64,000 nt of DNA from Herbidospora sakaeratensis. GTDB taxonomy: Bacteria > Actinomycetota > Actinomycetes > Streptosporangiales > Streptosporangiaceae. Each line of letters opens with the position of its first letter. Position 1 is the first letter of the stretch. The notes beneath the pieces are model-generated. The model was not told the origin of the DNA. It did not search any database and worked only from the letters and a program-made list of their open reading frames with translations. A program made the translations under genes and the position numbers. The stretch lies in NCBI RefSeq assembly GCF_001570525.1, contig NZ_BBXC01000011.1, positions 186,001 to 250,000 of the forward strand, in the 5' to 3' direction. Positions 46,435-62,341 of this stretch are shown one piece after another.

Positions 46435-46469
46435 GCTAAGTAGGACGAGACAGGGCACAGGGATGTGAC

Positions 46470-47140: not shown

Positions 47141-47179
47141 GGGACCTCCGGGGGGGTGTCGTCATGCGGAGTATTTATT

Positions 47180-47192: not shown

Positions 47193-47411
47193 GTGCAATA
47201 CCGCTTCCATACTGCGAGCACCTGCTATGCCGGACGGCGGGCCGCACTCCGCCTGATGGTCGCCTCCGGCCAAAACAGATGCGACCCCGAAATCGGCGGT
47301 CCGTTAATCCTAATTTGTGCTACCCCTTTTCTTGTTCGTGCTGCGGCCGCAGGGCCGGGGAGGGACACTGTTGATCGAGCCACGTCACCAGAAGATCTAC
47401 GGCGGAATGCG

Positions 47412-48650
47412 TTGCCCAATAAGCAAGATGCCAAGTCCCTCTTTTCTACACAGTCCTTTCCGGAGAGTCTCGATCTGACGGAACTGGCGGCCACAGGCTG
47501 GCGGCCGGTCGCCTTCCGGCAATTCATCCTGAAAGTACACAGTCGCTGCGACCTGGCCTGCCCGTCATGTTACGTATACAAAATGGCCGATCAAAGTTGG
47601 CGGTCACAGCCCCGGAAAATGAGCCCCGCCGTCATCGAAAAGGTGGCCTCTCGAATAGCGGAGCACGCCCGCGCCCATAGTCTCCAGACAGTCGACATCA
47701 TTCTCCACGGCGGAGAACCCCTGCTCGCGGGCGCGCAAGAACTCGCCACCATCGTGCGCAAGATCAGGTACGCATGCGCCGCCGTGGGTACGCGGGTCCG
47801 AGCCAGCATGCAGACCAACGCCGTCCGCCTCGACGAGGCCGCACTCGCACTCTTCGAGGAACTCGACATCCGAATCGGAGTAAGCCTCGACGGCGACCGG
47901 GAGGCCAACGATCGGATGCGCCGGTTCGCGGACGGCAGAGGTAGTTTCGACACGGTGGCGAAATCCCTCGAACTGCTCGCAACTGGCCCCTTCCACCATC
48001 TCTTCGCCGGCCTACTCTGCACGATCGACCTGAGGAACGATCCTCTGAAGACATACAGGGCGCTGCTGGAGTTCGACCCACCTGCTATCGACTTCCTGCT
48101 GCCACACGGGAACTGGGCAAGCCCTCCACCCGGCAAGGATGACGACCCCACACTCACCCCTTATGCCGACTGGCTGTTGCCCATTTTCGACCATTGGCAC
48201 GATGCACCCGCTCTCGAAACCGAGATCCGCCTTTTCCGGGAGATTCTCCGGCTGCTATCCGGGTCGCCCTCGCGAAGCGAATCCATCGGCCTTTCACCCT
48301 CATCGATGCTGGTCGTCGAGACCGACGGGACCATCGAGCAGTCGGACATCCTGAAATCCGTATCAGAAGGCGCCGCACACACCGGTCTGCATATATTCCG
48401 AGATCCATTCGATCGGGCACTCCTGCTGCCGGGAATCGTCGCCAGGCAAATCGGCGTGGCAGCCCTTTCCGACACCTGTCACAGGTGCGATATCAGAGAC
48501 GTCTGCGGGAGTGGCCTGTACGCCCACCGCCACGCTCCCACGAATGGATTCCGAAACCCGTCGGTCTACTGCGCCGACCTCTACAAACTCATCACCCACA
48601 TCAGAGATCGCTACGACCTCGACACCGCCCGTCTGAAGGGACGCATATGA
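47412..48650 (+). CDS. fxsB: FxsB-type cyclophane-forming radical SAM/SPASM peptide maturase
   Basis: The protein has 412 residues from the TTG chosen here; an in-frame ATG at 47256 would add 52 residues of poor-quality sequence, and neither has a good ribosome site. The radical SAM cluster motif is C46-x3-C50-x2-C53 in 'KVHSRCDLACPSCYVYKMAD', and the 'VHSRCDLAC..CYVY..ADQSW' block is characteristic of FxsB. 'IILHGGEPLLAG' follows. A C-terminal SPASM-like region has Cys in 'DTCHRCDIRDVCGSG' and 'PSVYCADL'. FxsB enzymes join an aromatic ring carbon to the beta-carbon of a residue two positions later (three-residue cyclophane, triceptide class). The substrate is probably the peptide encoded at 52572. 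The next gene overlaps by ATGA. Confidence 0.9.
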   Translation: MPNKQDAKSLFSTQSFPESLDLTELAATGWRPVAFRQFILKVHSRCDLACPSCYVYKMADQSWRSQPRKMSPAVIEKVASRIAEHARAHSLQTVDIILHGGEPLLAGAQELATIVRKIRYACAAVGTRVRASMQTNAVRLDEAALALFEELDIRIGVSLDGDREANDRMRRFADGRGSFDTVAKSLELLATGPFHHLFAGLLCTIDLRNDPLKTYRALLEFDPPAIDFLLPHGNWASPPPGKDDDPTLTPYADWLLPIFDHWHDAPALETEIRLFREILRLLSGSPSRSESIGLSPSSMLVVETDGTIEQSDILKSVSEGAAHTGLHIFRDPFDRALLLPGIVARQIGVAALSDTCHRCDIRDVCGSGLYAHRHAPTNGFRNPSVYCADLYKLITHIRDRYDLDTARLKGRI

Positions 48651-49906
48651 GCATCGTCTCCGCCACGACCTTCCGTTCCCTCGCGGCGGGATCCGGTGGC
48701 GCCAAGGCCGCCGCGGAGCTGTACGACCTGCAGCTCATACGGCGCCTCGCGCTCCTGCGCGGGGTGGCGGAGGAGGCGAGGCTGTCAGCCCATCCGGAGG
48801 CGTCGATCGCGTCTGCCGCCTATATGACCCTTTCGGAGCTGGGAAAAGAACACCCCGAAGCGGTCTCCCGCGTCCTCCGCCATCCAGCGGTGGCGTCGTG
48901 GGCCTGGAGCGCCTTCACGTCACTGCGATCCCACAAGCCCGTCCGGCCCGGACGACTGGGCGCGGTCGCATTGGCCGCAACGGTAGCGGCCGGCGCGGCC
49001 CGCCACATCAACGTGGTCTTGGAGGACGATGGAACGCTCATGCTGCCTTCGCTCGGGCTGCTGGCACCCACAGGAATTTCGACCGAGATCGACGTCGAAG
49101 GCAACGGGCTAAGCGCCGCGGACTGGTCGGCGGACCTCGACCTTTCGGCCGATGGTCACGGTTGGAGCGTGCTCCACCGTGTCCGCCTCGCCGAGGATTT
49201 CGAGGTGGTCGTCGACGACCTCGACCCTTACAGGTGGTCCGAATCCGATCAGGTCGCCCCACGCCTGACGCCGCAGGCCCGAGCATCATGGGAAACCAAG
49301 CTCGAGGAGGCTTGGAAGATCCTCCTCCTGCGGCACCCCACCGTCGCGGAAGAGGTCGCGACCATCATTTCGACGATCACGCCCATTCACAGTCACGGTT
49401 CCGGGGTCGCCAGTGCGTCGTCACGTCAGTCCTTCGGCACCATCGCCATGTCCACACCGAGCGGCAGACCTGCCTGGCTGGCAGAGACGTTCGCCCATGA
49501 GATCCAGCACGCGAAACTCGACGCACTCATGCAACTGATCCCGCTCATCCGCTACGAGCGGGCCGATCTGTTCTATGCGCCCTGGCGTCCCGACCCTCGC
49601 CCTGCCCACGGGCTCCTCCAAGGCGCCTACGCCTACCTCGGAGTAGTGGAGTTCTGGCGGCGCGAACACCCGATCGAGGGCCATCTGGGCAGGGTCGAGT
49701 TCGCCCGCTGGCGAGCAGGGGTTGAAGAGGTCCTCGACACCCTGATGAAGGAAAATCTGCTGACCGACAGCGGGAAGGATTTCGTCGACGGGATGCGGAC
49801 CACTCTGGCCGACGCCATCGCCACGACGATCGACGACCGCGCCCTGACAGCTGCCCAGGAGGCCGCGGCGGTGCACCGCGGCACCTGGCTGGCCCGGAAT
49901 ATGTGA
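48647..49906 (+). CDS. HExxH-motif protein, putative 2-oxoglutarate-dependent peptide beta-hydroxylase of the FxS system
   Basis: The protein has 419 residues, coupled to fxsB by ATGA, with AAGGGA ahead of the ATG. The C-terminal half has H284-E-I-Q-H288 in 'ETFAHEIQHAKLDALMQLI'. To my knowledge proteins of this type beside FxsB genes are named aKG-HExxH peptide beta-hydroxylases; the HExxH would then hold Fe(II) rather than a protease Zn. The N-terminal half is helical ('SAAYMTLSELGKEHPEAVSR'), with a beta domain in the middle. No signal peptide. It probably tailors the cyclophane peptide. Its stop touches, without a gap, the stop of the convergent FxsT-like gene (TGATCA). Confidence 0.8.
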   Translation: MSIVSATTFRSLAAGSGGAKAAAELYDLQLIRRLALLRGVAEEARLSAHPEASIASAAYMTLSELGKEHPEAVSRVLRHPAVASWAWSAFTSLRSHKPVRPGRLGAVALAATVAAGAARHINVVLEDDGTLMLPSLGLLAPTGISTEIDVEGNGLSAADWSADLDLSADGHGWSVLHRVRLAEDFEVVVDDLDPYRWSESDQVAPRLTPQARASWETKLEEAWKILLLRHPTVAEEVATIISTITPIHSHGSGVASASSRQSFGTIAMSTPSGRPAWLAETFAHEIQHAKLDALMQLIPLIRYERADLFYAPWRPDPRPAHGLLQGAYAYLGVVEFWRREHPIEGHLGRVEFARWRAGVEEVLDTLMKENLLTDSGKDFVDGMRTTLADAIATTIDDRALTAAQEAAAVHRGTWLARNM

Positions 49907-52423
49907 TCAGATCGGCAGGGGATCGAAGTCACAGTCGATGCGCACGCCTTTCGTCGCCGAGTCCGCGTCGGGCTGCCCTTGATTGAAACGCTCTCGGTAG
50001 AGGTCTACAGTCTCCCGCCGCAGTTCGTCCGCGTCGGGCGCGCCCACCGCCGTCCGGTCCAGCGCCAAGTTCGCCCCACACGACATGGTCAGGAAATGGT
50101 CACGTCCGAGCGTGGCGCGCAGGTTGGCGAAAGTCTCTTCTCCGAGGATGCGCGCCTTGCCGTGATCGCCCAGTGCGGCCAGGTCACTCTGCAGGTTGAC
50201 CGCACACGACAGGACGTAATGGTGCTGTTCGCCCAACCGCTCGGTCAGCCGGAGCCGGCAGGTCTCGTTCAAGGCCCGGGCGGTGTCGGGTTCGCCCTTG
50301 AGCCTGTACAGCACCGCGAGATTGGTCTGGCAGGCGATGGCGAACGGATGGTCGGTCCCGAGGACCAGTGGATAGGTGTATGTCATCTCGGCGGCGATTT
50401 CGAACGCCTCTTGCAGCTTTTTCTGAACGCGCAGAGTACTGGAGACGCTCAGCGCCGCTGCGATGGTGTCGGGATGGCGGGCACCGAACAGCCGAGTGAG
50501 CCTGGCATGGGTGTCGCGGGCGTTGTTGAGAGAGAGTTCGAGGGCGCCCGCGCGGCGCTGCGCGATGGCCAGATCTTTCTCTGTGATGAGGGTGGCCCAA
50601 TGATCTTTGCCGAGCTTCTGCACCCCGAAAGCCAGCGCGCTCTCCCCGGTGTCGCACGCCTCCTCGAAGTCACTCGTCAGCCGGACGAGCCGGGCCATGC
50701 TGTTCCACGAGAGGAGCACGATTTCCAGTCCCGACGGGTTGTTGGCCTCACTCTGCGCAAGGTAGACCTCGGTATGTAACGCCCTGGCCTGGGCGTAGTC
50801 GCTGTTCAAGGCATAGTCGAGCGCCAGACTGTTCTTCGCTCGCAGTGTGAGCTCGTCGTGCGGGCCCAGCACTCTCTCATGAAGCGCCACGGATTGCTTG
50901 TCATGCTCAAGAGCCTCTTTGAAGTCGCCGCGGGCCCGCAGACTTCCACCGAGGCCGTTGCTTGCGATCAGGGTTTCCTTGTGCTCGGGACCGAACCTGG
51001 CACGAACCTGTTCCAGGGTCACTCGATCGAGCTCGAAGGCCTGATCCCAGATGCCCATGCGGCGCAGGATATTGGTCTGGTGACGCCGCGCCTTCAGCAC
51101 ATCGGGATGATTGTGGCTCCCGGTAGAGCTCCACGCCTCGATGAACCTGTTCACCAGTTCCAACGAGGACTTGTAGTTGCCCGAGGCGTACAGATAGCGG
51201 ACGACGTTGAGGGCGAACTCCCGGACCCCGCCATCTTCACAAGTGACCAGGTCCGACGGCCCGACGTGTGGTACCAGATCGCGGAAGTCAGGCCACCTGG
51301 CGTCGTCGTCGGGATGCTCCGGCGCGGATCCGGCGAGCAGCAGATGGACCTCGTGGCGGACCGATTCCCGTTCAGCTCCTTTCATGTCGTCTCGAAGCAG
51401 GGCCTGGATGAGCCGGTGGACCTGGAGCGTTCGGGCCTCGGTGTCCCATCGGATGAGCGCGTGCCTGCTGAGCTCCTTCACGGCCTTGTCGAGCATGACC
51501 GGGTTGCCCAGTATCGGCTCAAGGCTGTGGGCATCGGCTTTGTTCCCCCGGCGGAAGACGTCGAACGGGATGGGCTCGGCACCGAAGAAGGCGCAGCAGC
51601 GCAGGAGGTTCTTCGCGACCGCCAGCCTCTCCTCGAGCAGGGAAACCGACACACGCCAGGCGGCCGTCATCGTAAGGGGGTAGTCGGAGGCGCGCTCGAT
51701 GCCGAGCAGTTGCCCGGCCTGCAGGTCAAGCAGCTCGATGTATTCGTCTACTGTCATCGTGCTGCTTCTCTGAAGCGCGCCTACCTGCTCCAGTGCCAGC
51801 GGCAGATCTCCGAGTTTGTCCGCCAGCCGATCGGCTTCATCAGGGGTGATCCGATCTCCCAGCCTCAGGCGCAGGAAGTCCACGCTCTCCTTGCGCGGGA
51901 AGACGTCCACACCGAGCATCCGATACTGATCGCCCCAAGCCGGGTTTCGCGATGTGACGATCACATGACCGGTCTTCTGTGGGATGTACTGCTCGATCCG
52001 GTCATCTTCAGCGTTGTCGAAGATCAACAGCCAGTTCTTGTACGGTCTCCCGTCCTCCAATGCCTTTCGCACAGAGTCGGCTGCTTCCTCCACTCCGACG
52101 ACCGATGCCGGCGGCAGCCGAAGATGGGGGGCCATCGCGGCCAAAGCCGAAGGCACCAGGTAGTACTGGTCGGCCGGGATCCACCACACGAGGCGGTAGT
52201 GACTGCGGTAACGATGGGCGTATTCGATGGCCAAGTGTGTTTTGCCCACGCCACCGTAACCCTGGAGCGCCTGCGGCCGCGGGACCAGCGCGACGACCGA
52301 CTTCGCCCCCTCACGCAGTTCCTGCAACAGGCTCTCGCGGCCGGTGAAGTTGGCATTCCGCGGCGGCACCCTTTCGAAGACCTCGGGCTCCGCACCGCTC
52401 AGAGAGTGGGACGTTTCGGCCAA
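49907..52423 (-). CDS. FxSxx-COOH-system NB-ARC/tetratricopeptide protein (FxsT-like), copy 1
   Basis: This is an 838-residue STAND ATPase. The TTG start has GGAGG six bases upstream. The N-terminal 'RVPPRNANFTGRESLLQELR' is the mark of FxsT-type proteins. NB-ARC domain (about 30-320): P-loop 'LQGYGGVGKTHLAIEYAHRY', Walker B 'WLLIFDNAEDD', 'VIVTSRNP' and 'LGDLPLALEQVGAL'. A winged-helix-like part follows, then about ten TPR repeats (about 430-800) such as 'LGGSLRARGDFKEALEHDKQ'. The end 'VRIDCDFDPLPI' is shared with copy 2. STAND proteins of this form sense a ligand with the TPR arch and oligomerise. It is divergent from the precursor/SIR2/nSTAND genes. Confidence 0.9.
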   Translation of the reverse strand: MAETSHSLSGAEPEVFERVPPRNANFTGRESLLQELREGAKSVVALVPRPQALQGYGGVGKTHLAIEYAHRYRSHYRLVWWIPADQYYLVPSALAAMAPHLRLPPASVVGVEEAADSVRKALEDGRPYKNWLLIFDNAEDDRIEQYIPQKTGHVIVTSRNPAWGDQYRMLGVDVFPRKESVDFLRLRLGDRITPDEADRLADKLGDLPLALEQVGALQRSSTMTVDEYIELLDLQAGQLLGIERASDYPLTMTAAWRVSVSLLEERLAVAKNLLRCCAFFGAEPIPFDVFRRGNKADAHSLEPILGNPVMLDKAVKELSRHALIRWDTEARTLQVHRLIQALLRDDMKGAERESVRHEVHLLLAGSAPEHPDDDARWPDFRDLVPHVGPSDLVTCEDGGVREFALNVVRYLYASGNYKSSLELVNRFIEAWSSTGSHNHPDVLKARRHQTNILRRMGIWDQAFELDRVTLEQVRARFGPEHKETLIASNGLGGSLRARGDFKEALEHDKQSVALHERVLGPHDELTLRAKNSLALDYALNSDYAQARALHTEVYLAQSEANNPSGLEIVLLSWNSMARLVRLTSDFEEACDTGESALAFGVQKLGKDHWATLITEKDLAIAQRRAGALELSLNNARDTHARLTRLFGARHPDTIAAALSVSSTLRVQKKLQEAFEIAAEMTYTYPLVLGTDHPFAIACQTNLAVLYRLKGEPDTARALNETCRLRLTERLGEQHHYVLSCAVNLQSDLAALGDHGKARILGEETFANLRATLGRDHFLTMSCGANLALDRTAVGAPDADELRRETVDLYRERFNQGQPDADSATKGVRIDCDFDPLPI

Positions 52424-52571
52424 GCCAAACCTCCGAACAAGCAGTACTCAAAACTTGCCCCCGCACCATGTTCAAAGCTCATGAAACCAGCTATACCTAC
52501 TGTGGAACACCTTCCAAGGTTTCCGGGCAAAGAAGAACCGGACAAACGGTCAGCCAGAAGCGGAGTGGTCC

Positions 52572-52724
52572 ATGATTTCGGACACCAATTTCTCGTCTGA
52601 GACTCAGGCGGCTTCGGTCCTCAATGAAGTAAACGAGATTCCATACGCGTCCCTACGAGGTCTAATCGAGGCGTTCACCGAGGCTCCGGGCACCATCTCC
52701 TCCGGATTCCAGAACTTCATGTGA
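52572..52724 (+). CDS. fxsA: Candidate FxSxx-COOH-type cyclophane RiPP precursor (FxsA-like, ends FQNFM)
   Basis: This 50-residue peptide starts at an ATG with GGAG six bases upstream. The N-terminal leader is acidic/polar ('ISDTNFSSETQAASVLNEVN'), the middle reads 'EIPYASLRGLIEAFTEAPG' and the last residues are 'ISSGFQNFM'. FxsA precursors end in F-x-S-x-x; here Ser is replaced by Asn. FQN fits the aromatic-x-Asn motif of three-residue cyclophanes, so FxsB would be expected to link Phe46 to Asn48. The gene lies between the FxsT-like and SIR2 genes, in the right size range and on the same strand as FxsB. It is short, so it is the least certain member, but its C-terminal position of the motif is hard to explain by chance. 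Confidence 0.72.
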   Translation: MISDTNFSSETQAASVLNEVNEIPYASLRGLIEAFTEAPGTISSGFQNFM

Positions 52725-52853
52725 GACCGATCCACCTGTAAAGCCGGGAGTCGAACCCAAAACCACCGGCTGATCGAAGCCACCACAAACTCCTACATCC
52801 GCATCGCCCCTTCTGGCCCTAAAGTTGTCGTCGAGTCAGGGTCGCTGAGGCAG

Positions 52854-53762
52854 GTGCGCATGCGTGAGATGGAGCAGCACGACTGGAATCAGTTGATCTA
52901 CCAGTTGAAGCGAGGGCTTTGCACTCCCTTCGTCGGAGCCGGCGCATCACTCAGCGTCCTGCCGTCAGGCCGGGCGCTGAGCCGCAAACTCGCGAAACGC
53001 CTCGGCTACAGGGGAAAGAACTCATATGATCTTCCCCACGTCGCCCAGTTCGGGGGTATGAAACAGGGCGAGTTGGGTCATGTGAAGGAAATCGTCCGCG
53101 ATGAGCTCACTCTTGGGCGGGTTCCTGATTTCGCCGACCCACACGAGCCACACGGCCTGCTCGCCGGCTTTCCCTTTCCAGTGTTCGTGACGACGAACTT
53201 CGATGACTTCATCGCCCGATCACTGGTGGCGGCCGGGAAAACACCGACCAGCGTGATATGCCCCTGGAACTCGGACATCCCGGCGGACGAGAAGCTACTG
53301 GCCAGCGAGTCAGTATGGAAACCAGAACCTGACACTCCGCTGGTGTATCACCTGCATGGCGCCCTGTCCGATCCCGCCACCCTAGTCGTCGCCCAGGACG
53401 ACTATCATGAATTCGTCCGCAACTTGGCCATGGAATCCGCTACGGGCCAGCGAAAGATGATTCCGCCTGCGGTCCTCAAAGCCCTGGCAAGGCAGCCACT
53501 CCTCTTCGTGGGGTACAGCCTGCAGGATCTGTCCTTTCGCATGCTATTCCAGGATTTGAACACATCGATTCCAGGAATCAGCCGGAGAAAGCACGTCAGT
53601 ATTCAGCTCGAAAAACCGAAGACAGACGCGGAGAAAGAAGAGAAGAAAAATCTGGAACTGCAGCTGGACTGGTATTACCGAGGATGGACGATCGCCGTCT
53701 TCTGGGGTGGCGTGGCGGCCTTCTGCGCCGAACTCCGCTCCAGAATGGGAGCCGACAAGTGA
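52854..53762 (+). CDS. SIR2-family (SIR2-like NADase type) protein, copy 1
   Basis: This 302-residue protein starts at a GTG (ATG codons at 52860 and later are alternatives). The sirtuin-like NAD site is visible: 'FVGAGASLSVLPSG' (glycine loop), Asn115 in 'FVTTNFDDFIAR' and His168 in 'LVYHLHGALSDPATLV', plus 'LLFVGYSLQDLSFRMLF'. These are the residues needed for NAD+ cleavage in defence SIR2 proteins such as ThsA. The C-terminus is 'WYYRGWTIAVFWGGVAAFCA'. It overlaps the nSTAND gene by GTGA, so both are made together. I infer a role as the NAD+-consuming effector; activity is not proved. Confidence 0.88.
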   Translation: MRMREMEQHDWNQLIYQLKRGLCTPFVGAGASLSVLPSGRALSRKLAKRLGYRGKNSYDLPHVAQFGGMKQGELGHVKEIVRDELTLGRVPDFADPHEPHGLLAGFPFPVFVTTNFDDFIARSLVAAGKTPTSVICPWNSDIPADEKLLASESVWKPEPDTPLVYHLHGALSDPATLVVAQDDYHEFVRNLAMESATGQRKMIPPAVLKALARQPLLFVGYSLQDLSFRMLFQDLNTSIPGISRRKHVSIQLEKPKTDAEKEEKKNLELQLDWYYRGWTIAVFWGGVAAFCAELRSRMGADK

Positions 53763-55681
53763 GCCGGACGTCACCTTATGTGGGGCTTCGTCCATTTTCG
53801 GGCGCGGAGAGCGGCAAGTTCTTCGGCCGCGAAAGAGAAGCACATGACGCTGCCAATTTGTGGCAATCCTGCCCACTGACCGTACTCATTGGTCCACACG
53901 GAGCAGGCAAGACGTCTCTGCTGAACGCAGGCGTCATCCCACTGATCGACAGATCGTCGAACGACATCCTTCCGATCGCGCACCTGACGACCAGCGCCGA
54001 CCCGGTCGACTCCGCAAAGCCGATGGGTGATCACACTTTCGCCCTGCTCTCCGCGTGGGCTCCACACATTCCCGCCAAGCGGATAGCCGACCTTTCTTTA
54101 GCGACTCTTTTCAAGAAGGAATTTGCGCGCTCCGACCGGTTCGGCGAGAAAATATACACGCTTGCCGCCATCGATAACTTCGAACAGATTTTCGAGGGGC
54201 CGACCGGCGGCCGCGAAAGATTGATTGATCAACTCATCGAAGTCCTGGAGACGAACCCTTACCTGCACCTCCTCGTCTCCATCACGGATGATCGATCCCC
54301 CATCCTCCTTGACGATCCCCGAATCAACCGCCTGCCCAAAGGCTTGGTTCGGCTGGGAAAGATGTCCACCTCGGCCGCTTTACGCGCTGTCACGAAGCCG
54401 CTGGAGAACGCCGGTGTCGCATTCGCCCCCGGGGCGGCGGAAATGCTGGTGAAGACCCTCCAAACACGACCCGGTGATGAGCCTGTCGATGTGGTGCGGC
54501 TGCAATTGGCTTGCACGAGCTTATGGACATCACTCCAGCCCACCGAATCAATCGTCAGTGCGCAGCATGTATCGGAATGTGGCGCACTGGACATCACACC
54601 CATGGACGTTGTAGAGCAGGTGCTCTCCAATGTGGCTGCCGCTCATTTCGGGACCGACGCGAGGTTGCTCCGCAGCTGGCTCTATGAGAACTTCTTCAGT
54701 GGCCGGAACTTCGCCTCTGTCTATCGAGGGGAAACCATCACGGCGAACATGCCCAACGAAGTGATCGACACGCTGGTAGAAGCCGGCATTCTGGCCACCC
54801 ACAGCGATCACAACGGTAATCAGTGGCATACGATATCCAACGGAATCATGGTCGGCCTGGTGGAGAGAGTCCTGACGAACGGCTCACCCGAACAGAGCCC
54901 GCCGAAAAGTTATCTCACAGCAGCCGGAACGGCGTTCCGAGACGGAAACTTCCAACTCGCCACGATACAGGCCGAGCTGGCCTTGGCGCAGACCCGAGAC
55001 GTCACAGAGAAGGGGGAAATCGAGACCTTCCTCGGCAACGTCGCCTTCAGCCAAGAACTCTACGACGCTGCGATTGAGCACTATCAGAAGGCAGCGACTC
55101 TCTTCGAACTCTTCGCCGTCGCGCCGGTCATCGGCCGACTGCTCGCCGCAATCGGCAGATCGCGGCGGGCGCAAGGTCACGCACCACTGGCCGCCGCTGA
55201 GTTCCGGGCGGCCCTTGAACGTGTGCCCACCGACTCCCTGATAAGGACAGACCTGGCCTGGGCCCTGTGGTACGGAGGGCATCCGCAGGACGCGGAGAGC
55301 ACGCTGAATGAGATTCTCCGCAAAGAGGAAGACCTCTCCGCAGCCCTCCTCGCACGGGCTCAGATTCTCGCGGATCTCAACAGACCAGGAGACTCGCTAC
55401 GCGACTTCGAGAAGGTGCTGCCCTTACGGCGGCCGCCTGCTCAGGCCGCCTACGCGTTGGCGTTGGCGTTGGCCGGCAATGTCGAGGAGGCGAAATCCGA
55501 AGTTCGCCCTATCAAGGAGCACGCCGACGGACACGGACCCGCACTCTTGAGAGTGGCGAGAATCGAGCAGCTCGTCGGCGATCACGCCGAGGCCGCCAGG
55601 CTGGCACGCGAGGCGCAAAGGGCGAAGTCGCCCGCGCTGCCGCCGCATCTCCGGGAGATCGCTCTCGGACTTCTTGACTGA
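53759..55681 (+). CDS. nSTAND1-type P-loop NTPase with C-terminal TPR repeats, copy 1
   Basis: This 640-residue protein begins at the GTG overlapping the SIR2 stop. 'SPYVGLRPFSGAESGKFFGR' is the classic N-terminus of nSTAND1 NTPases. P-loop 'LIGPHGAGKTSLLN' (45-52) and Walker B-like 'AAIDNFEQIF' (136-143) are present. The following strand reads 'LLVSITDDRS', where copy 2 has 'VLISIRDDQV', so the usual Arg is lost. A middle helical domain (about 250-380) leads to a TPR-like arch (about 390-640: 'FLGNVAFSQELYDAAIEHYQ'). It probably senses a trigger and activates the coupled SIR2 protein, as in SIR2-STAND defence proteins, here split in two chains. Confidence 0.85.
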   Translation: MSRTSPYVGLRPFSGAESGKFFGREREAHDAANLWQSCPLTVLIGPHGAGKTSLLNAGVIPLIDRSSNDILPIAHLTTSADPVDSAKPMGDHTFALLSAWAPHIPAKRIADLSLATLFKKEFARSDRFGEKIYTLAAIDNFEQIFEGPTGGRERLIDQLIEVLETNPYLHLLVSITDDRSPILLDDPRINRLPKGLVRLGKMSTSAALRAVTKPLENAGVAFAPGAAEMLVKTLQTRPGDEPVDVVRLQLACTSLWTSLQPTESIVSAQHVSECGALDITPMDVVEQVLSNVAAAHFGTDARLLRSWLYENFFSGRNFASVYRGETITANMPNEVIDTLVEAGILATHSDHNGNQWHTISNGIMVGLVERVLTNGSPEQSPPKSYLTAAGTAFRDGNFQLATIQAELALAQTRDVTEKGEIETFLGNVAFSQELYDAAIEHYQKAATLFELFAVAPVIGRLLAAIGRSRRAQGHAPLAAAEFRAALERVPTDSLIRTDLAWALWYGGHPQDAESTLNEILRKEEDLSAALLARAQILADLNRPGDSLRDFEKVLPLRRPPAQAAYALALALAGNVEEAKSEVRPIKEHADGHGPALLRVARIEQLVGDHAEAARLAREAQRAKSPALPPHLREIALGLLD

Positions 55682-55683
55682 GT

Positions 55684-58212
55684 TCATATCGGCAGGGGAT
55701 CGAAGTCGCAGTCGATCCGGATGCCCGACTCCGCGGTGACCGCATCAGGCTGCCCCAGTTCTGCCCGTTCCTGATAGAGATCCGCCACCTCGGCCTTCAT
55801 CCGCTCCGCGTCGGGCGCTCCGACGGCAGTCCGGTCTAAGGTCAGGTTGGCGGCGCAGGACATGGACAGGAAATGGTTCCTCCCGAACCGCTGGGTGAGC
55901 AAGCGGAGCGCTCCCTCACCGAGGTCTCTGGCCCGCTCACGGTCACCAAGGGCGGCCATGTCACTCGCCAGGTTCACCGCGCACAACAACGCATAGTGGT
56001 GGCCTGGGCCCAGCCGGGCGGTCAGGCTCTGTCTGGCTGCCTCGTTGAGCTCGCGGGCCTTCCCAGGGTCGCCGAGCAGACGGTGAAGGATGGCCAGGTT
56101 TGTCGGGCAGGCGAGGGTGAATGGGTGGTCGTCGCCGTAGACGTGCGGGTAGGTGCGGGTCATCTCCTCCGCCAGTTCGTAGGCCTCCGCGAGATCGCCA
56201 CGCACCCGCAGGGCGTTGGAGACGTTCACCGCCGCCGCGATCGTGTCGGGGTGGCGAGAGCCGAACAGCCGCACTAGCCGGGCATGAGTGTCTCTTGCGA
56301 TCGTGATGGAATCCTCCAGCGCGCCCGCGCGCCGCTGGGCGATCGACAGGTCCTTGGCAGTGATCAGAGTCGCCCAGTGGTCGCGGCCCAGTTTCTGAAC
56401 CCCGAACGCCAGCGCGGCCTCGCCGGTGTCGCAGGCCTCCTCGAAACCGCTTGTGAGCCGTACGGCCCTGGCCATGCTGTTCCACGACAGCAGTACGATT
56501 TCCGAGCTGGCCGGGTTGGCCGCCTCGCTCTGGGCCAGGTAGACCTCCGTGTGCAGCCGTCTGGCCAGTTCGTACTCACTGTTGAGGCCGAAGTCGAGGG
56601 CGAGGCTGTTCTTGGCCCGCAGGGTGAGGACATGGTCGTCACCAAGCAGCCGCTCATGTTGTCTGACCGACTCCTCGTCGAGTTCGAGCGCCTCCCGGAA
56701 GTCACCGTGGGCCCGCATGCTACCGCCGAGACCATTTCTGGCAATCAGCGTTTCCGGGTGTTCCGGGCCGAATACGGTGATGACATCCGCCAGAGTGGTG
56801 CGGTCGAGGTCGTACACCTGGGCGTACTCACCCATGCGGCGCAGCGTGTTCCCCTGGTGGCGGCGGGCCCGGAGCACGTCGGGGTGGTTCTCCCGCGCTC
56901 GCCCCCACTCGTCGATGGAGGCGGTGACCAGTTCCAGCGCCGAACGGTAGTTGCCCGAAGAATAGAGGTAGCGCACGACGTTGAGAGCGAATTCGCGGAC
57001 GCTGGGCTCGCTGGATTCGAGAAGCCGCGAAGGGCGGACGTGGGGCACCAGGTCGGCGAAGTCCGGCCACTTGGAGTTGTCGTCCGGAAGTTGCGGCGCG
57101 CTGCCGGCGAGAAGGCGATGCACTTCTTCGCGTTGCTGGTCCTGACGGGCTTCGTCGAGGACATCCCGCAAGAGCGCCTGAATCAGCCGGTGCACCTGGA
57201 TCGTCCGGTTGTCGGGGTCGCTCCGGATGAGAGCGTATCGGCTGAGCTCTTTCACGGACTTGTCGAACATGATCGGGTCGGACAGCAGGTTCTCCAGGCT
57301 CGGCGCATTGGCCTTGTTTCCACACCGGAAAACATCGAGTGGAATGGGGTCGGGACCGAAGAAAGCACAACAGCGCAGCAGGTTGAGCGCGATCGCCAGC
57401 CGTTCTTCCAGCAACGAGACCGAGACTCGCCAGGCGGCGGTCATCGTCAGTGGATAGTCCCTGGCTCTTTCCGCGCCCAGCAGGCGGGCCGTCTGTTTGT
57501 CGAGCAGTTCGATGTAGTCGTCAACAGTCATGGTGCCGCGCCGCTGCAACGCGCCGACCTGTTCGAGGGCCAACGGCAGATCACCCAATTTGTCGGCCAG
57601 CCGGAACGCCTCGTGTTCGGTGATCCGCCTGCCTAGCCTTTTCGTCAGGAACTCGATGCTCTCGTCTCGGGTGAACACGTCCACCTGGAGGGATCGAAAT
57701 TGATCGTCCCAATTCGGGTCGCGTGATGTGATGATCACGTGACCGGGGCCGCGCGGAATGAACCTCTCGATGCGAGAGTCTTCCGCGTTGTCGAAAATCA
57801 ACAGCCAGTTGTCGTACGGCGCCCCGTTCTCCAGCGACTCCCGCACCGACTCAGCCGCCTCCTCCACACCCACGACAGAGGCAGGAGTCAAATTGAGATG
57901 AGGCGCCAATGCGGCCAGCGCCGAAGGCACCAGATAGTACTGGTCTGCCGGAATCCACCAGACCAAGTCATAGTGGGAGCGATAGCGGTGGGCGTACTCG
58001 ATCGCCAGGTGGGTCTTCCCGACGCCGCCGTAGCCTTGCAGAGCCTGTGGCAACGGGATGACGGCGGTCACTGACCGGGTGCCCTCACGCAGCTGGTGCA
58101 GCAGGCTCTCCCGCCCCGTGAAACTGCGGTTCCTGGGCGGAACCCGCTTGAAAATCTCCGGTCGCTTGTCTCCGAGGGATTGCGGGGCGGGCAAAGCTGA
58201 TTCGCCGACCAT
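55684..58212 (-). CDS. FxSxx-COOH-system NB-ARC/tetratricopeptide protein (FxsT-like), copy 2
   Basis: This 842-residue protein is a clear paralogue of the product of 49907-52423 along its full length, with the same order: 'RVPPRNRSFTGRESLLHQLR', P-loop 'LQGYGGVGKTHLAIEYAHRY', Walker B 'WLLIFDNAEDS', 'LGDLPLALEQVGAL', TPR units ('LGGSMRAHGDFREALELDEE') and the identical C-terminal 'IRIDCDFDPLPI'. The N-terminus differs and has a longer polar lead. GGAGG lies four bases ahead of the ATG. It is divergent from the second SIR2 gene. Two copies with divergent sensor repeats suggest different ligands or partners. Confidence 0.9.
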   Translation of the reverse strand: MVGESALPAPQSLGDKRPEIFKRVPPRNRSFTGRESLLHQLREGTRSVTAVIPLPQALQGYGGVGKTHLAIEYAHRYRSHYDLVWWIPADQYYLVPSALAALAPHLNLTPASVVGVEEAAESVRESLENGAPYDNWLLIFDNAEDSRIERFIPRGPGHVIITSRDPNWDDQFRSLQVDVFTRDESIEFLTKRLGRRITEHEAFRLADKLGDLPLALEQVGALQRRGTMTVDDYIELLDKQTARLLGAERARDYPLTMTAAWRVSVSLLEERLAIALNLLRCCAFFGPDPIPLDVFRCGNKANAPSLENLLSDPIMFDKSVKELSRYALIRSDPDNRTIQVHRLIQALLRDVLDEARQDQQREEVHRLLAGSAPQLPDDNSKWPDFADLVPHVRPSRLLESSEPSVREFALNVVRYLYSSGNYRSALELVTASIDEWGRARENHPDVLRARRHQGNTLRRMGEYAQVYDLDRTTLADVITVFGPEHPETLIARNGLGGSMRAHGDFREALELDEESVRQHERLLGDDHVLTLRAKNSLALDFGLNSEYELARRLHTEVYLAQSEAANPASSEIVLLSWNSMARAVRLTSGFEEACDTGEAALAFGVQKLGRDHWATLITAKDLSIAQRRAGALEDSITIARDTHARLVRLFGSRHPDTIAAAVNVSNALRVRGDLAEAYELAEEMTRTYPHVYGDDHPFTLACPTNLAILHRLLGDPGKARELNEAARQSLTARLGPGHHYALLCAVNLASDMAALGDRERARDLGEGALRLLTQRFGRNHFLSMSCAANLTLDRTAVGAPDAERMKAEVADLYQERAELGQPDAVTAESGIRIDCDFDPLPI

Positions 58213-58401
58213 AGGACCTCCAACGCATCGACGCGAATTCTTGCCAAATGACCATCCAATCAGCAGTGCTGCTCACTAGCCCAGACGGCGAACGGCGACC
58301 AACCGTTATGCCCTTAACGGCCGCCACCAAAAGTCATCCGGCCCCCAGCAGGCCTAGCCTTACAGTCGAAACCTGATATCAGGCTGAGCAGGGGGCCAGG
58401 C

Positions 58402-59298
58402 ATGGGTGGGATGAGCGAAAAAGATTGGGAGCGGCTCATTTACCAGTTGAGGACCGGCCACTGCACCCCCTTCGTGGGCTCCGGCACCTCAATGAGCGTT
58501 CTTCCGTCTGGTCGCCAACTCAGCGAGACCCTCGCAGCCAAAGTCGATTACTCCGGCCCCGACGCCAGGGAACTGCCTCGTGTGGTGCAGTACGCCAGCT
58601 TCGAATACGGCGATCTCAGTCACGTGAAATATCTCGTCCGCGACGAACTCATCAAAGGAGACCAGACTCCAGACTTCGGCGACCAGAATGAGCCACACGC
58701 TGTGCTGGCGGATTTTCCCTTGCCGGTCTATCTGACCACCAATTACGACGATTTCATCGTACAGGCGCTGGCGACCCGCAGGAAGAAGGCCCGGGCCGCC
58801 ATCTGCCCATGGAACGACTTGATCGCGCCTGACCCGCTGTTCGAGGGCGACGAGGGGTGGAACCCAAGCCCCTCGACCCCGCTCGTCTACCACCTACACG
58901 GCGCGATGCGCGATCCGGCCTCCTTCGTCCTGGCCGAGGACGACTACATGATGTTCCTGCGCAATCTCGCCATCGAGCGCAACAACGGGGGCAACCGCAT
59001 ACTCCCGCCGTCGATTCTCGCAGCGCTGACCACACGACCGTTGTTGTTCATCGGATACAGCCTCCAGGACTGGACGTTTCGGGCGCTGTTCCAGGAACTC
59101 GGCCGGTCGATCCCCGCGATCAGCAGACGTCGCCACGTGAGTGTGCAGCTGGCCCCCGGCGAAGCCTCGGGCTGGACGGTCGACGCCCTGGAACGCCAGT
59201 TGCAGTGGTACTACCGCGAATGGCAGATATCGGTGTTCTGGGGCGGTATCGAAGATTTCTGCACTGAATTGCGCGACCGAATAGGGGCCATGCCGTGA
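58402..59298 (+). CDS. SIR2-family (SIR2-like NADase type) protein, copy 2
   Basis: This 298-residue paralogue of the 52854 protein shares the whole layout ('FVGSGTSMSVLPSG', Asn114 in 'LTTNYDDFIVQ', His166 in 'LVYHLHGAMRDPASFV', 'LLFIGYSLQDWTFRALF', 'FWGGIEDFCTEL'). The catalytic pair is intact. GGGGGCC precedes the ATG, which may be replaced by the Met four codons later. It overlaps the next gene as GTGA. No signal peptide or membrane segment is present. Confidence 0.88.
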   Translation: MGGMSEKDWERLIYQLRTGHCTPFVGSGTSMSVLPSGRQLSETLAAKVDYSGPDARELPRVVQYASFEYGDLSHVKYLVRDELIKGDQTPDFGDQNEPHAVLADFPLPVYLTTNYDDFIVQALATRRKKARAAICPWNDLIAPDPLFEGDEGWNPSPSTPLVYHLHGAMRDPASFVLAEDDYMMFLRNLAIERNNGGNRILPPSILAALTTRPLLFIGYSLQDWTFRALFQELGRSIPAISRRRHVSVQLAPGEASGWTVDALERQLQWYYREWQISVFWGGIEDFCTELRDRIGAMP

Positions 59299-61283
59299 CC
59301 GAACAAGTCCCGACCCCCGAGCCCTACGTCGGCCCGCGTGCGTTTCTCCGCCAGGACAGCGGCAAGTACTTCGGCCGAGAACGCGAAGCCCATGAGGTTT
59401 GCGACCTGTGGCGGTCGAACCAGCTCACAGTCCTCTACGGCCCTTCTGGCGCGGGCAAGACCTCGCTGATCAACGCAGGCGTCCTGCCGCTGCTCGACCC
59501 GTCACAGAACGACGTCCTGCCGGTCGGACGGGTCGCACATACCTCCACCACGCCGTCTACAGCGCTGCCCGAGCACAACCCGCACACCTACGCCTTGCTG
59601 TCCTCCTGGTCGCCGGGAGAGACCCCGTCGATGCTGGCCGGACTCACCCTGAAGCGGTTCTTCAATCGCCGGCCGCCCCGTCAGGACCCCTACGGCGATC
59701 CGGTGCTGCGTTTGGCGGCGATCGATCAAGCCGAGGAGCTCTTCCTGGAAGGCAGGGACCGGACGCCGTACCACGATTGGTTCGTCGACCAACTCGCCGA
59801 CGCCCTCGGCGCGGACCTCGACCTGCGCGTGCTGATCTCAATCAGAGACGACCAGGTCGGCGCGATCCTGCGCGACCACCGCCTGCGGGAGGTCATGACC
59901 AAGGGCCGCTTCGCGCTGGGCGCTCTGGAGCCCTCCGCCGCGACGCGGGCCGTCGTGGGTCCTCTGACAGGCACCGCCTACTCCTTCGCCGACGCCGCCG
60001 CGCAGCGTCTGGTCGACGACCTAAGCGGGGGTCGCAGCACCGAACCGGAGTCGAAGGCGATCGAGCCGCTCCAGCTCCAGGTGGTCTGCACGGCGCTGTG
60101 GAGATCACTGCCCCAGGACGTCACCCACATAACCACGGACCATGTCGTGCGGTACGCCGACGTGCGCCGATCTCTGGAGACGTACGTCGACCGCACGATC
60201 GCCGAGGTGGCACTCGAACACTTCGACGGGGAGACATCCCACTTGCGCGACTGGCTACGCGACAACTTCGTCGCCGACTCCCGCAGGATCCCCGTCTACC
60301 GCGGCGAAACCCTTACCGCAGGACTGCCAAACGAGGTGGTCGCCGCTCTGGTCACCCACCACATCCTGACCCCACGCTCAGACGTCACCGGAGACACCGC
60401 CCAGTGGTACGAACTTGGGCACGAGGGCCTGGCCCGCCTCATCCGGGCTGACGCCGGCGACGTCACCGTCGACCGACGGACTCCCCAGCAACTCCTTTGC
60501 CTCGCGCAGCACGCCCTACGCGCGGGCGACTTCGCCCGCGCTCGCAGGAACGCCAGACTCGCGCTCGACCGGACGGACTCCTCTCGGCTGAGAGCCGAAA
60601 CCGAGTCGTTCCTCGGCGATGTGGCCTTCGCCGACGCCCGATACGCCACAGCCATTGATCATTACCAGGAAGCAGCTGGGCTCTTTGAGGTGCATGGGCG
60701 GAAGGAGACCGTGGGCCGCATGCTTGCCGCCATAAGCAGGTCTCGCCGTGCGCTCGGCGAGACGCAACAGGCGATCAACCACCTGAGATCGGCAATCGAT
60801 CGGGTCCCCCACGATCAGGGCGTCCGAATCGAGCTGGCCCTCACCTACTGGTATAGGGGCCACGTGAACTCCGCCCGCGAGACGCTCGATGGTGTCCTCG
60901 ACGGAGATCCCCTGTCGTGGCCGGCCCTCCGCGCCCGAGCTGAGATCCTTCTCCACCTCGGTCTGCAGGACGAGGCCCTTCGCGATTTTGCTCAGATCAT
61001 GCCGATAAGAGAACCTTGGGCCCAAGCGGCTCATGCCTATGCCCTGGCCAAGAAAGGAAAACATCATCTGGCGCAAAGAGAAATCACAGCCGCACTCGCG
61101 ACTTCTCCAGAACAGAGCCCGGTGCTTTTGTACGCCGCGCTCGCGGCAAAGGAGGCAGGCGACTCTGGGATATGCGAACGGCTCGCCGGGTCAGCCTTTA
61201 CAGCCAGAAACCCGCTCTTACCTCTACCTTTGGCAGAGGTGCTCAATCAACTGGTTGAGAAAGAAATGAAAGACCCTTCCTGA
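59295..61283 (+). CDS. nSTAND1-type P-loop NTPase with C-terminal TPR repeats, copy 2
   Basis: This 662-residue protein starts at the GTG in the SIR2 stop. N-terminus 'EPYVGPRAFLRQDSGKYFGR', P-loop 'LYGPSGAGKTSLIN' (49-56), Walker B 'AAIDQAEELF', and an intact 'VLISIRDDQVGAIL'. 'IEPLQLQVVCTALWRSLPQD' and 'YELGHEGLARLIRADAG' are the usual nSTAND1 helical elements; the TPR arch is at about 410-655 ('FLGDVAFADARYATAIDHYQ'). It is the better-preserved of the two NTPases. Its stop lies 25 bases from the tRNA-Thr gene. Confidence 0.87.
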   Translation: MTEQVPTPEPYVGPRAFLRQDSGKYFGREREAHEVCDLWRSNQLTVLYGPSGAGKTSLINAGVLPLLDPSQNDVLPVGRVAHTSTTPSTALPEHNPHTYALLSSWSPGETPSMLAGLTLKRFFNRRPPRQDPYGDPVLRLAAIDQAEELFLEGRDRTPYHDWFVDQLADALGADLDLRVLISIRDDQVGAILRDHRLREVMTKGRFALGALEPSAATRAVVGPLTGTAYSFADAAAQRLVDDLSGGRSTEPESKAIEPLQLQVVCTALWRSLPQDVTHITTDHVVRYADVRRSLETYVDRTIAEVALEHFDGETSHLRDWLRDNFVADSRRIPVYRGETLTAGLPNEVVAALVTHHILTPRSDVTGDTAQWYELGHEGLARLIRADAGDVTVDRRTPQQLLCLAQHALRAGDFARARRNARLALDRTDSSRLRAETESFLGDVAFADARYATAIDHYQEAAGLFEVHGRKETVGRMLAAISRSRRALGETQQAINHLRSAIDRVPHDQGVRIELALTYWYRGHVNSARETLDGVLDGDPLSWPALRARAEILLHLGLQDEALRDFAQIMPIREPWAQAAHAYALAKKGKHHLAQREITAALATSPEQSPVLLYAALAAKEAGDSGICERLAGSAFTARNPLLPLPLAEVLNQLVEKEMKDPS

Positions 61284-61308
61284 TGGAGTAGGGCCAAGAC
61301 ATATAGAG

Positions 61309-61380
61309 CCGCCTTGGGGAATCGAACCCCAGACCTTCTGTTTACAAGACAGATGCTCTGCCGATTGAGCTAAGGCGGCG
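61309..61380 (-). tRNA. tRNA-Thr (anticodon TGT)
   Basis: 72 nt fold into a full cloverleaf on the minus strand: acceptor GCCGCCT/AGGCGGC, D-arm GCTC/GAGC, anticodon loop CTTGTAA with TGT, T-arm TGGGG-TTCGATT-CCCCA. TGT reads ACA (Thr). CCA is not encoded. Its 3' end faces the RiPP/STAND island, the usual geometry for an integration site. Confidence 0.95.
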
Positions 61381-61396
61381 AACGAACCAAGCCAGT

Positions 61397-62341
61397 CTAG
61401 CCTCTACGCAGCCGAGACACCTCGTAGAGCGCGATCCCAGCCGCAACCCCGGCGTTCAGCGACTCCGCCGCAGCCCCCATCGGAATGCGAACCACCTGGT
61501 CACAAGCCTCCCGCACCAACCGGGACAGCCCCTTCCCCTCAGACCCGACAACCACAACCAGTGGCTCCCCGGCGAGAGTCATGTCCCCGATGTCCGTCCG
61601 AGACTCCCCATCGAGCCCAACGACGAAGAGCCCCTCTTCGCGATACCCCTGAAGCGCCTGCGTAAGGTTCGCCCCCCGAGCCACCGGAAGCGTGGCCAAC
61701 GTCCCGGCAGACGTCTTCCAGGCCCCAGCCGTGACCCCTGCGGACCGCCGCCCCGGCACCAGTAGCCCATGAGCCCCGAACGCAGCCGCGGACCGGGCGA
61801 TAGCGCCGAGGTTACGAGGATCGGTCACCGAGTCGAGCGCCACGATCAGCGGCACCTCAGCCGCGTCTTGAGCGAACCGCACCAGGTCGATCGGATGCGC
61901 ATACTCGTAAGCGGGAATCTGCAGCGCGACCCCCTGGTGCACGCCACCCTCGGTCAACCGGTCAAGCTTCCCCCGATCGACTTCGAGCAGCGCGATCCCC
62001 TTGTCAGCGGCGATCTTGATCGACTCCCGAACCCGGTCGTCGTTCTCGATCCGCGCCGCGACATAGAGAGCAGAAGCAGGCACCCCAGCCCGCAGCGCCT
62101 CGACAACCGGGTTACGCCCCCCGATGTACTCAGGCGCGTCCTCGGACTTCCGAGCCCGTACAGGAGCCTTCCGAGGCGAGGCGCCCCCGCGCTCCTCCCG
62201 GGCGACACGCTCAGCCCGGGCCTTGTCCTTGTACCAGTGCCGAGCCTCAGCGGGCGGCGTCGGGCCCCTGCCCTCAAGAGATCGCCGAACCTTGCCCCCG
62301 GTCCCCCGAGTGGCACCCTGCCTTTTACGTCCCGCTGCCAT
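61397..62341 (-). CDS. rlmB: 23S rRNA (guanosine-2'-O-)-methyltransferase (RlmB/TrmH family)
   Basis: This 314-residue SpoU-class methyltransferase has a basic, disordered N-terminus (about 65 residues), the substrate-binding domain beginning 'YIGGRNPVVEALRAG', and the knotted SAM domain with motif 1 'ALDSVTDPRNLGAIARSAAA', motif 2 'VVVVGSEGKGLSRLV' and motif 3 'IPMGAAAESLNAGVAAGIAL'. It methylates G2251-equivalent of 23S rRNA. It is paired with cysS, as in other actinobacteria. Confidence 0.94.
   Translation of the reverse strand: MAAGRKRQGATRGTGGKVRRSLEGRGPTPPAEARHWYKDKARAERVAREERGGASPRKAPVRARKSEDAPEYIGGRNPVVEALRAGVPASALYVAARIENDDRVRESIKIAADKGIALLEVDRGKLDRLTEGGVHQGVALQIPAYEYAHPIDLVRFAQDAAEVPLIVALDSVTDPRNLGAIARSAAAFGAHGLLVPGRRSAGVTAGAWKTSAGTLATLPVARGANLTQALQGYREEGLFVVGLDGESRTDIGDMTLAGEPLVVVVGSEGKGLSRLVREACDQVVRIPMGAAAESLNAGVAAGIALYEVSRLRRG

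Follow-up and report, generated by a model that had tools for sequence, protein, structure and literature searches.

A conserved island of Herbidospora sakaeratensis joins FxSxx-type peptide maturation genes to STAND NTPase and predicted SIR2 NADase genes

The 64,000-nucleotide stretch of DNA analysed here, referred to as the window, covers positions 186,001–250,000 of contig NZ_BBXC01000011.1 of Herbidospora sakaeratensis (labelled G000:C11), and between its positions 47,412 and 61,283 it holds an island in which the genes of a peptide-processing pathway stand among those of predicted SIR2 effectors and STAND nucleoside triphosphatases (NTPases). The pathway is of the FxSxx-COOH (Fxs) kind, a group of systems for ribosomally synthesized and post-translationally modified peptides (RiPPs) that Haft and Basu reportedly described in 2011 as consisting of FxsA, FxsB, FxsC and FxsT; though such clusters are common in actinomycetes, we know of no report of their products or role. 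The best reading is that the island is a variant of those FxSxx peptide-processing conflict systems which, in the form described so far, employ TIR. With slightly better than even confidence, we regard it as a conserved intracellular immune-type (conflict) module joining a cyclophane RiPP pathway to a STAND/SIR2 enzyme that would cleave nicotinamide adenine dinucleotide (NAD+), that is, an NADase. One maturation chassis wired to both SIR2 and TIR through a recurrent STAND partner would point to immunity rather than antibiosis, and would offer a reason for the conservation of these clusters. The features of the island are as follows.

47412–48650, plus strand: FxsB, cyclophane-forming radical S-adenosylmethionine (SAM)/SPASM peptide maturase by family (TIGR04269, 480 bits; cut-off 370)
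48647–49906, plus strand: stand-alone aKG-HExxH-type peptide beta-hydroxylase by family, hereafter HExxH (TIGR04267, 146 bits; cut-off 40)
49907–52423, minus strand: FxsT-1, NB-ARC, DUF7779 and TPR, without TIR (NF040586, 919 bits; cut-off 300; Pfam)
52572–52724, plus strand: FxsA-like precursor, 50 amino acids, C-terminus GFQNFM (open reading frame ending in SSGFQNFM and a stop)
52854–53762, plus strand: SIR2-1, predicted SIR2_2 NADase-type effector, 302 amino acids (PF13289, 4e-25)
53759–55681, plus strand: nSTAND1-TPR-1 (PF20703, 9.5e-31, scanned as the frame from the in-frame start at 53684)
55684–58212, minus strand: FxsT-2, NB-ARC, DUF7779 and TPR (NF040586, 935 bits; cut-off 300)
58402–59298, plus strand: SIR2-2, predicted SIR2_2 NADase-type effector, 298 amino acids (PF13289, 1.2e-26)
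59295–61283, plus strand: nSTAND1-TPR-2 (PF20703, 8.2e-36)
61306–61379, minus strand: tRNA-Thr(TGT), the right-hand border of the island, kept in relatives

Profile scans bore out the gene inventory and coordinates of an original prediction made on this DNA, namely FxsB, HExxH, a precursor, two FxsT proteins and two SIR2-nSTAND1 pairs, and the precursor ending in FQNFM is indeed present, in the first of two tandem units. The translational couplings that it described also stand, as FxsB and HExxH overlap by ATGA and both SIR2/nSTAND1 pairs by GTGA; from the GTGA overlap with SIR2-1, nSTAND1-TPR-1 probably starts at the GTG at 53759. Its description of a co-linear block was mistaken: along the plus strand the order is FxsB, HExxH, FxsT-1 (reversed), fxsA, SIR2-1, nSTAND1-TPR-1, FxsT-2 (reversed), SIR2-2, nSTAND1-TPR-2 and tRNA-Thr, and FxsT-1 is divergent from the fxsA-SIR2-nSTAND1 string. 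The edges of the island are sharp: to the left of about 47,199 and to the right of about 61,305, at the 3' end of tRNA-Thr, the flanks are 84–93% identical in Herbidospora relatives. The proportion of guanine and cytosine per 2-kb bin is 0.59–0.65 in the island bins (46001–62000) versus 0.67–0.73 in the remaining ones.

The linkage of these genes is not limited to one strain. In a class-wide sample of 296 genomes, in which SIR2, FxsB and FxsC sites were counted with a 10-kb limit, 13 genomes have 18 SIR2 sites between them, 16 of which lie within that distance of FxsB, against about 0.1 expected at random placement. The two exceptions are G152:C85, where a contig end cuts the nSTAND1 side and FxsT is present with no FxsB in the 12 kb fetched, and G055:C20, where an NB-ARC-SIR2 fusion occupies the SIR2 slot. 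FxsB itself is found in 58 of the 296 genomes of the class, and in at least 206 of the 297 of an order sample. Its 81 sites in the class (one below the curated cut-off) comprise 28 with FxsC only, 15 with SIR2 only, 38 with neither and none with both. For two of the 18 SIR2 sites, one in a second module on contig C7 of H. sakaeratensis and one in G275, a neighbouring canonical cluster that has an FxsB to itself brings an FxsC to a distance of about 8.5 kb, so that a wider distance limit would score these two as having both. The original prediction had held that the link would be one of chance if relatives carried FxsC alongside SIR2 genes at random positions; the position of SIR2 is instead recurrent, lying between the precursor and nSTAND1 and divergent from FxsT in dozens of loci, and the link survives on this count as well.

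A scan with the SIR2 alignment gave 79 named loci (L numbers below), and among the 65 with a local SIR2 score of at least 180 the fetched stretch holds FxsT in 57, HExxH in 50, FxsB in 42 and nSTAND1 in 63, with no Fxs gene in 8. In four loci of the Nonomuraea group, nSTAND1 and FxsB run in the same direction with 1–49 nt between them. The identity matrices of SIR2, nSTAND1 and the adjacent FxsT are correlated at r 0.87–0.92 over 52 units, and none of 1000 permutations gave a value as high (52 of 74 units were used, those with all three genes present and each longer than 60% of its counterpart in the window). All six genes are under purifying selection, judged by the ratio of nonsynonymous to synonymous substitution rates (dN/dS) in pairs of relatives. 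A chance neighbourhood was considered and rejected, given the 16/18 linkage, the co-divergence and the presence of SIR2 at the window site in seven of seven genomes of the genus.

The SIR2 motifs GxG, TTN-x-DD and HxHG are invariant in 43 of 43 aligned rows, the alignment being a selection from which L040, near-duplicates and the weak loci L069–L082 were left out. SIR2-1 keeps TTN and HxHG, and its AlphaFold2 (AF2) model has a predicted local distance difference test score (pLDDT) of 90.7. When the model is compared with the PDB by Foldseek, the best match is ThsA (E 1.1e-14), and the best 50 of 733 fold matches are all ThsA, KomC/HAM-SIR2, DSR2 or Avs5 entries (E 1e-14 to 4e-9, TM-score by query 0.57–0.72). 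By sequence the closest solved chains are likewise of the ThsA and KomC types, and the PADLOC ThsA models match across the SIR2 part. The proteins have the GxG, TTNxD and HG motifs as well as the fold of SIR2-type defence NADases, which strongly suggests that they cleave NAD+. The dN/dS of SIR2 is 0.05–0.11 in four pairs of relatives, and SIR2-2 is 87–88% identical to the SIR2 of H. yilanensis and H. cretacea. The genome of H. sakaeratensis contains four PF13289 matches, three in Fxs modules and the fourth in a 1580-amino-acid frame on contig C13. ThsA and KomC, the close structural relatives, belong to nucleotide-signal systems, which lends some weight to the idea that the SIR2 product is an ADP-ribose-type second messenger activating another effector, and that NAD+ is not depleted. 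In those systems, however, SIR2 is the terminal NADase and not the messenger maker, and family scans of the island proteins found no further enzyme or messenger-sensing family; we consider the idea highly improbable.

The precursor gene of the window has GGAG ahead of its ATG, and its motif FQNFM is of the form FxNxx, not FxSxx; no NCBIfam model matched it. Precursors similar in sequence occupy the same place in the Herbidospora loci L004, L005, L007, L008 and L009, and endings in FQNFI or FQNFM recur in the genus, with FTNFI and FSNFI in L006 and L031. In the gaps between FxsT and SIR2 of the fetched loci (the window's own two gaps excluded, and SIR2 domains fused to FxsT skipped), an open reading frame in the SIR2 direction ends in F-x-[SN]-x-x in 36 of 57, versus 3 of 57 on the opposite strand; 15 more SIR2 sites fall outside the count, having no divergent FxsT within 1.5 kb. 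The dN/dS of the precursor in three pairs of relatives is 0.17, 0.34 and 0.09, over 46–49 codons only.

Both FxsT proteins of the window exceed the curated cut-off and have the architecture NB-ARC, DUF7779 and TPR, with TPRs resembling those of kinesin light chain and with no TIR found by Pfam at E 0.01. Between the two copies within the window, identity is 71% for FxsT, 54% for SIR2 and 39% for nSTAND1; FxsT is held back while nSTAND1 diversifies. The dN/dS of FxsT is 0.10–0.18 in four pairs of relatives. In an FxsT tree (quick, with long branches and a midpoint root, and with matches spanning fewer than 600 amino acids left out), 67 of 70 nSTAND1-paired rows form one clade together with 3 'other' rows (support 98), and the remaining nSTAND1-paired proteins, those of L057, L060 and L067, lie just outside it (support 82). 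FxsC-neighbouring FxsT proteins are mostly elsewhere in the tree; the H. sakaeratensis C7 protein, the one among them that was checked for TIR, has TIR_2. The labels follow distance limits, so that L062 and three loci whose SIR2 is at a distance of about 2 kb (L043, L051 and L053) are labelled as lacking SIR2, and the 6 SIR2 changes counted on the tree partly reflect these labels. FxsT is divergent from nSTAND1 without SIR2 in 9 of the 38 FxsB loci with neither SIR2 nor FxsC and in 4 of the 20 FxsC loci fetched (out of 28 sites). The single clade and these 13 loci together indicate that nSTAND1, and not SIR2, is the constant partner of this FxsT type. The original prediction that SIR2 has replaced the TIR-like partner is partly borne out, in that SIR2 and FxsC exclude each other at each FxsB site within the 10-kb limit; it is nonetheless too simple, because the nSTAND1-paired FxsT proteins have a clade of their own and 13 loci combine FxsT and nSTAND1 without SIR2.

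In seven of these 13 loci nSTAND1 is followed by a small protein that has a hydrophobic N-terminus and, by eye, a coiled-coil-like body; its gene is co-directional in five and convergent in two.

L113:2409–2978, minus strand: small hydrophobic-N-terminus protein
L116:2477–3046, minus strand: small hydrophobic-N-terminus protein
L111:2270–2851, minus strand: small hydrophobic-N-terminus protein
L118 and L121: further loci with such a protein
L120 and L123: such a protein, convergent

They may represent two families, since the five and the two match each other weakly or not at all, and nothing in the SIR2 loci matched either group. These proteins are candidates for an alternative effector. Taken with the FxsT tree, the SIR2-less nSTAND1 loci suggest that a chassis of FxsB, HExxH and FxsT recurs while the arm varies, being TIR, SIR2 or perhaps a membrane protein. 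At L156, L157, L159 and L160 one FxsB/HExxH pair stands between FxsC plus a long FxsT on one side and FxsT plus nSTAND1 on the other, one maturase being common to both kinds of arm; the FxsC-neighbouring FxsT proteins of these four shared loci fall at the base of the nSTAND1-paired side of the tree.

SIR2 also occurs as a C-terminal domain of FxsT-type NB-ARC proteins, detected with local profiles in all five cases below and with Pfam in L037 and L139.

L035:4216–6708: NB-ARC FxsT-type protein with C-terminal SIR2 domain
L037:4256–6910: the same architecture
L038:4231–6822: the same architecture
L041:4102–6732: the same architecture
L139:7790–10483: the same architecture (same place as L095)

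FxsT-type NTPases are therefore physically tied to SIR2. In the fused domains the catalytic Asn is lost (TTS, TTA or TTC) and HxHG has become HLAG or HLNG. PaAvs5-1 has NG for HG and yet is active, according to the part of PMC12931631 that treats it, and for this reason the lost Asn speaks more strongly than the altered HG for a dead fused domain. A separate SIR2 gene also stands beside FxsT in L035, L037, L038 and L041, and the fused domain may serve as a decoy or adaptor.

The AF2 model of nSTAND1-TPR-2 has a pLDDT of 90.5, and its top Foldseek match in the PDB is 6mfv, a STAND protein with a TPR sensor, with a TM-score of 0.3 over the full chain. In 60-codon windows the dN/dS of nSTAND1 is 0.00–0.12 in the first two, reaches 0.38 in the middle and ranges over 0.02–0.66 from codon 361 onward, in the TPR part; the protein evolves more freely beyond its NTPase core. 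That the TPR half is the fastest-evolving part of all was considered and is weakened, since only 2 of 4 pairs have their highest window clearly within the TPR part, and the overall dN/dS of HExxH is higher than that of nSTAND1 in 3 of 4.

For the maturases, the closest solved relative of FxsB is ChlB (9gm3, E 1.7e-75), and the closest solved proteins to HExxH are 22nu (4.8e-41) and ChlH (8s5f, 5.8e-10). FxsB-type enzymes connect the aromatic ring of F-x-N/S with its third residue, and family membership suggests cyclophane formation by FxsB and hydroxylation by the HExxH enzyme. On account of its HExxH motif, and of the peptidase role predicted in the relevant passages of Kaur et al. 2020 (PMC7159879), the latter protein might instead be a peptidase that frees the C-terminal peptide. 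TIGR04267, however, now carries the name aKG-HExxH-type peptide beta-hydroxylase, and 22nu and ChlH are the nearest solved proteins, so a peptidase is improbable. At two Microbispora loci, L044 and L048, HExxH directly follows nSTAND1, the fetched stretch holds no FxsB and the precursor ends in GFQSAI; hydroxylation without the maturase, or a maturase acting in trans, is possible there.

Compared with known systems, the island resembles Fxs RiPP systems in having FxsB and FxsT over the curated cut-offs, an HExxH domain and a short precursor with C-terminal F-x-x-x-x, and it differs in lacking FxsC, in the addition of SIR2 and nSTAND1-TPR, in the stand-alone HExxH and in the motif FxNxx. FxsC has a single match in the whole H. 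sakaeratensis genome, on C7, and none in the island; unlike the canonical FxsT of C7, the window proteins have neither the N-terminal KGGVGR-ATPase nor TIR. The passages on peptide processing in Kaur et al. 2020 (PMC7159879) describe systems linked to the TIR-AP-ATPase-TPR and VMAP ternary conflict systems, and these share with the island a radical SAM-SPASM enzyme, HExxH, a rapidly diverging precursor, an AP-ATPase/TPR protein and a predicted conflict role. The arms there are a TIR AP-ATPase and an inactive MinD/ParA one, whereas here the arm is SIR2 and nSTAND1, and the window FxsT proteins lack the N-terminal TIR of those AP-ATPase/TPR proteins; in the main text of that paper 'sir2' and 'nstand1' have 0 occurrences. 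Similarly, PMC8195603 names nSTAND1, and SIR2 once, with 0 matches for FxSxx, radical SAM or peptide-processing, and among open-licence PMC full texts we found no description of SIR2 or nSTAND1 in an Fxs cluster. Avs5, as described in the relevant section of PMC12931631, is a single SIR2-nSTAND3-repeat protein and is similar in its SIR2_2 effector with TTNxD/HG-type motifs, STAND NTPase and repeat domain; the island differs from it in having separate genes, nSTAND1 rather than nSTAND3, and in addition FxsT, a peptide and maturases, and so does not belong to Avs5. Thoeris ThsA, KomC (Kongming) and DSR2 share the SIR2 fold and catalytic motifs; SIR2_2 is the sole domain found in the SIR2 proteins here, which are accompanied by a STAND NTPase and a RiPP pathway. 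Thoeris consists of ThsA, a SIR2-SLOG protein, with ThsB, a TIR protein. The island is not a Thoeris system, as its SIR2 proteins carry SIR2_2 only and none of its eight proteins has TIR.

In the mechanism that we propose, FxsB would staple the F-x-N/S at the C-terminus of the FxsA peptide, which the HExxH enzyme, as its family membership suggests, would probably also hydroxylate. FxsT, an NB-ARC protein resembling NOD-like receptors (NLRs), with kinesin-light-chain-type TPRs, would be the likely reader of the finished peptide, while nSTAND1-TPR, to go by its domain layout, would act as a switch and perhaps as a threat sensor. SIR2, from the fxsA-sir2-nSTAND1 gene string, would be the effector, which once activated may cleave NAD+ and stop infected cells, like its structural relatives. 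Acting through FxsT, the peptide may thereby determine the threshold at which the STAND/SIR2 complex responds, with SIR2, TIR and perhaps a one-membrane-helix protein as interchangeable arms on the FxsB/FxsT chassis. If the peptide controls NADase activation, a cyclophane RiPP would here set an immune switch of the NLR type, which would help to reveal what a large orphan RiPP class does.

The peptide might instead be a diffusible toxin or signal, serving kin recognition or as an antibiotic, with FxsT, nSTAND1 and SIR2 as the receiver that kills mis-sensing cells. A processed peptide acting as toxin or signal is predicted in the corresponding passage of Kaur et al. 2020 (PMC7159879), and a gene resembling, by eye, a major facilitator superfamily (MFS) transporter lies just downstream of the C7 module (L001:16112–17482). 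No transporter family was matched among the eight island proteins by Pfam, however, and FxsA has no signal peptide by eye, its gene adjoining the effector gene in the same direction; we judge a diffusible peptide unlikely. As to an intracellular peptide, the arming or restraint of NAD depletion that the original prediction raised is compatible with the findings, and the adjacency and shared direction of fxsA and the effector slightly favour restraint, in the manner of a safety catch, over arming. More tentatively, and with considerable doubt, the module can be pictured as a bacterial NLR network in which the stapled cyclophane peptide is an endogenous 'guardee': the FxsA C-terminus held by FxsT would silence nSTAND1/SIR2, and NAD+ depletion would be released once the peptide was displaced or lost, for example when a phage shuts off translation or SAM/Fe-S metabolism. 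If this is true, self-made modified peptides tune STAND immunity, and SIR2, TIR and membrane effectors are interchangeable arms.

Several observations weigh against the immune-module reading or limit its reach. SIR2-nSTAND1 pairs without any Fxs gene make up 7 of the 65 strong loci, mostly from other phyla, from which it follows that the pair can function in the peptide's absence; conversely, SIR2 is not obligatory, given the 13 loci with FxsT and nSTAND1 only. FxsB is missing from the fetched stretch in 15 of 57 FxsT-bearing loci, some of them contig ends, with L044 and L048 looking real. Only 25 of 52 units have nearest neighbours that agree across SIR2, nSTAND1 and FxsT, and part of the co-divergence reflects host descent. 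A six-frame reading of the 190-bp gap ahead of SIR2-2 revealed no precursor, which leaves unit 2 without FxsA, and 21 of the 57 gaps have no FxSxx/FxNxx frame, six of them having one that ends in FxAxx instead (L021, L024, L032, L034, L039 and the second unit of L059). PADLOC on the window proteins gave no convincing defence match beyond the SIR2 proteins (ThsA-type models). The sensor role of nSTAND1 has mixed support from evolutionary rates and draws more on domain layout, and NAD depletion, phage defence, the role of the peptide and the direction of its action are parts of the proposal that we infer. Some of these points suit a different explanation, in which SIR2-nSTAND1 is a self-sufficient two-gene defence pair that shares a hotspot with an Fxs cluster and has nothing to do with the peptide; the stand-alone pairs agree with it, as do the position of the island beside a tRNA gene and the strong differences between species in the modules at the same site. 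Such sharing is hard to square with the recurrent precursor-sir2-nSTAND1 order divergent from FxsT, with nSTAND1 and FxsB lying 1–49 nt apart in one direction, and with the co-divergence, the NB-ARC-SIR2 fusions and the exclusion with FxsC, and we hold it to be rather unlikely.

Outside the Fxs setting, three loci from Verrucomicrobiota and Planctomycetota metagenome-assembled genomes (MAGs), L054, L061 and L064, have two tandem SIR2 genes followed by one nSTAND1 and no Fxs genes. In an Acidobacteriaceae MAG (L062), SIR2, nSTAND1, HExxH and FxsT occur together outside Actinomycetota, through horizontal transfer or binning error, and a SIR2 module of Acrocarpospora macrocephala (L023), which in the stretch fetched has no FxsB to itself, may make use of its neighbour's.

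The second module, on contig C7, is diverged from that of the window: its FxsB is 62% and its HExxH 46% identical to the window's, its SIR2 is 54% identical to SIR2-2 and its nSTAND1-TPR 43% identical to nSTAND1-TPR-2, and it also has FxsT and a precursor ending in FQSSY. Beside it lies a canonical cluster in which FxsB and HExxH are fused, and which also has an acetyltransferase-like gene (AAC(3)-like by eye), the TIR-like FxsC, an FxsT with KGGVGR-ATPase and TIR domain, and a candidate FxsA ending in FQASI; module and cluster each have their own FxsB. Seven of seven Herbidospora genomes have a C7-type SIR2 in addition to a SIR2 at the window site, where the flanks are kept and SIR2 lies between them in all. 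In H. mongoliensis (L032) the same flanks enclose a strongly diverged module (SIR2 47% identical), and modules therefore appear to have been exchanged in place, which is favoured over excision because there is no empty site in the seven genomes. A tRNA-borne integrative element with att repeats was considered and rejected, as the 12-base words of the tRNA gene have no second copy in the window. Two tandem units are found in the window and in H. solisilvae (L008), the latter having a precursor in both units and the window in unit 1 only. Against H. cretacea, the synonymous rate (dS) is 1.0–1.5 for FxsB/HExxH and 0.45–0.74 for unit 2, and on this evidence the locus in the window looks mosaic, with two modules now sharing one FxsB. 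Double SIR2-nSTAND1 modules occur in other genera as well (L016/L039, L017/L040, L036/L042 and L059).

Finally, an acetyltransferase-like gene (AAC(3)-like by eye) recurs beside the FxsB-HExxH fusion (FxsBH) in many canonical Fxs clusters, and possibly provides an extra peptide-modifying step.

L002:8866–9666, minus strand: acetyltransferase-like gene
L019, L023, L026, L027, L028, L101, L102, L143, L144, L146, L148, L150, L152 and L158: acetyltransferase-like gene also present

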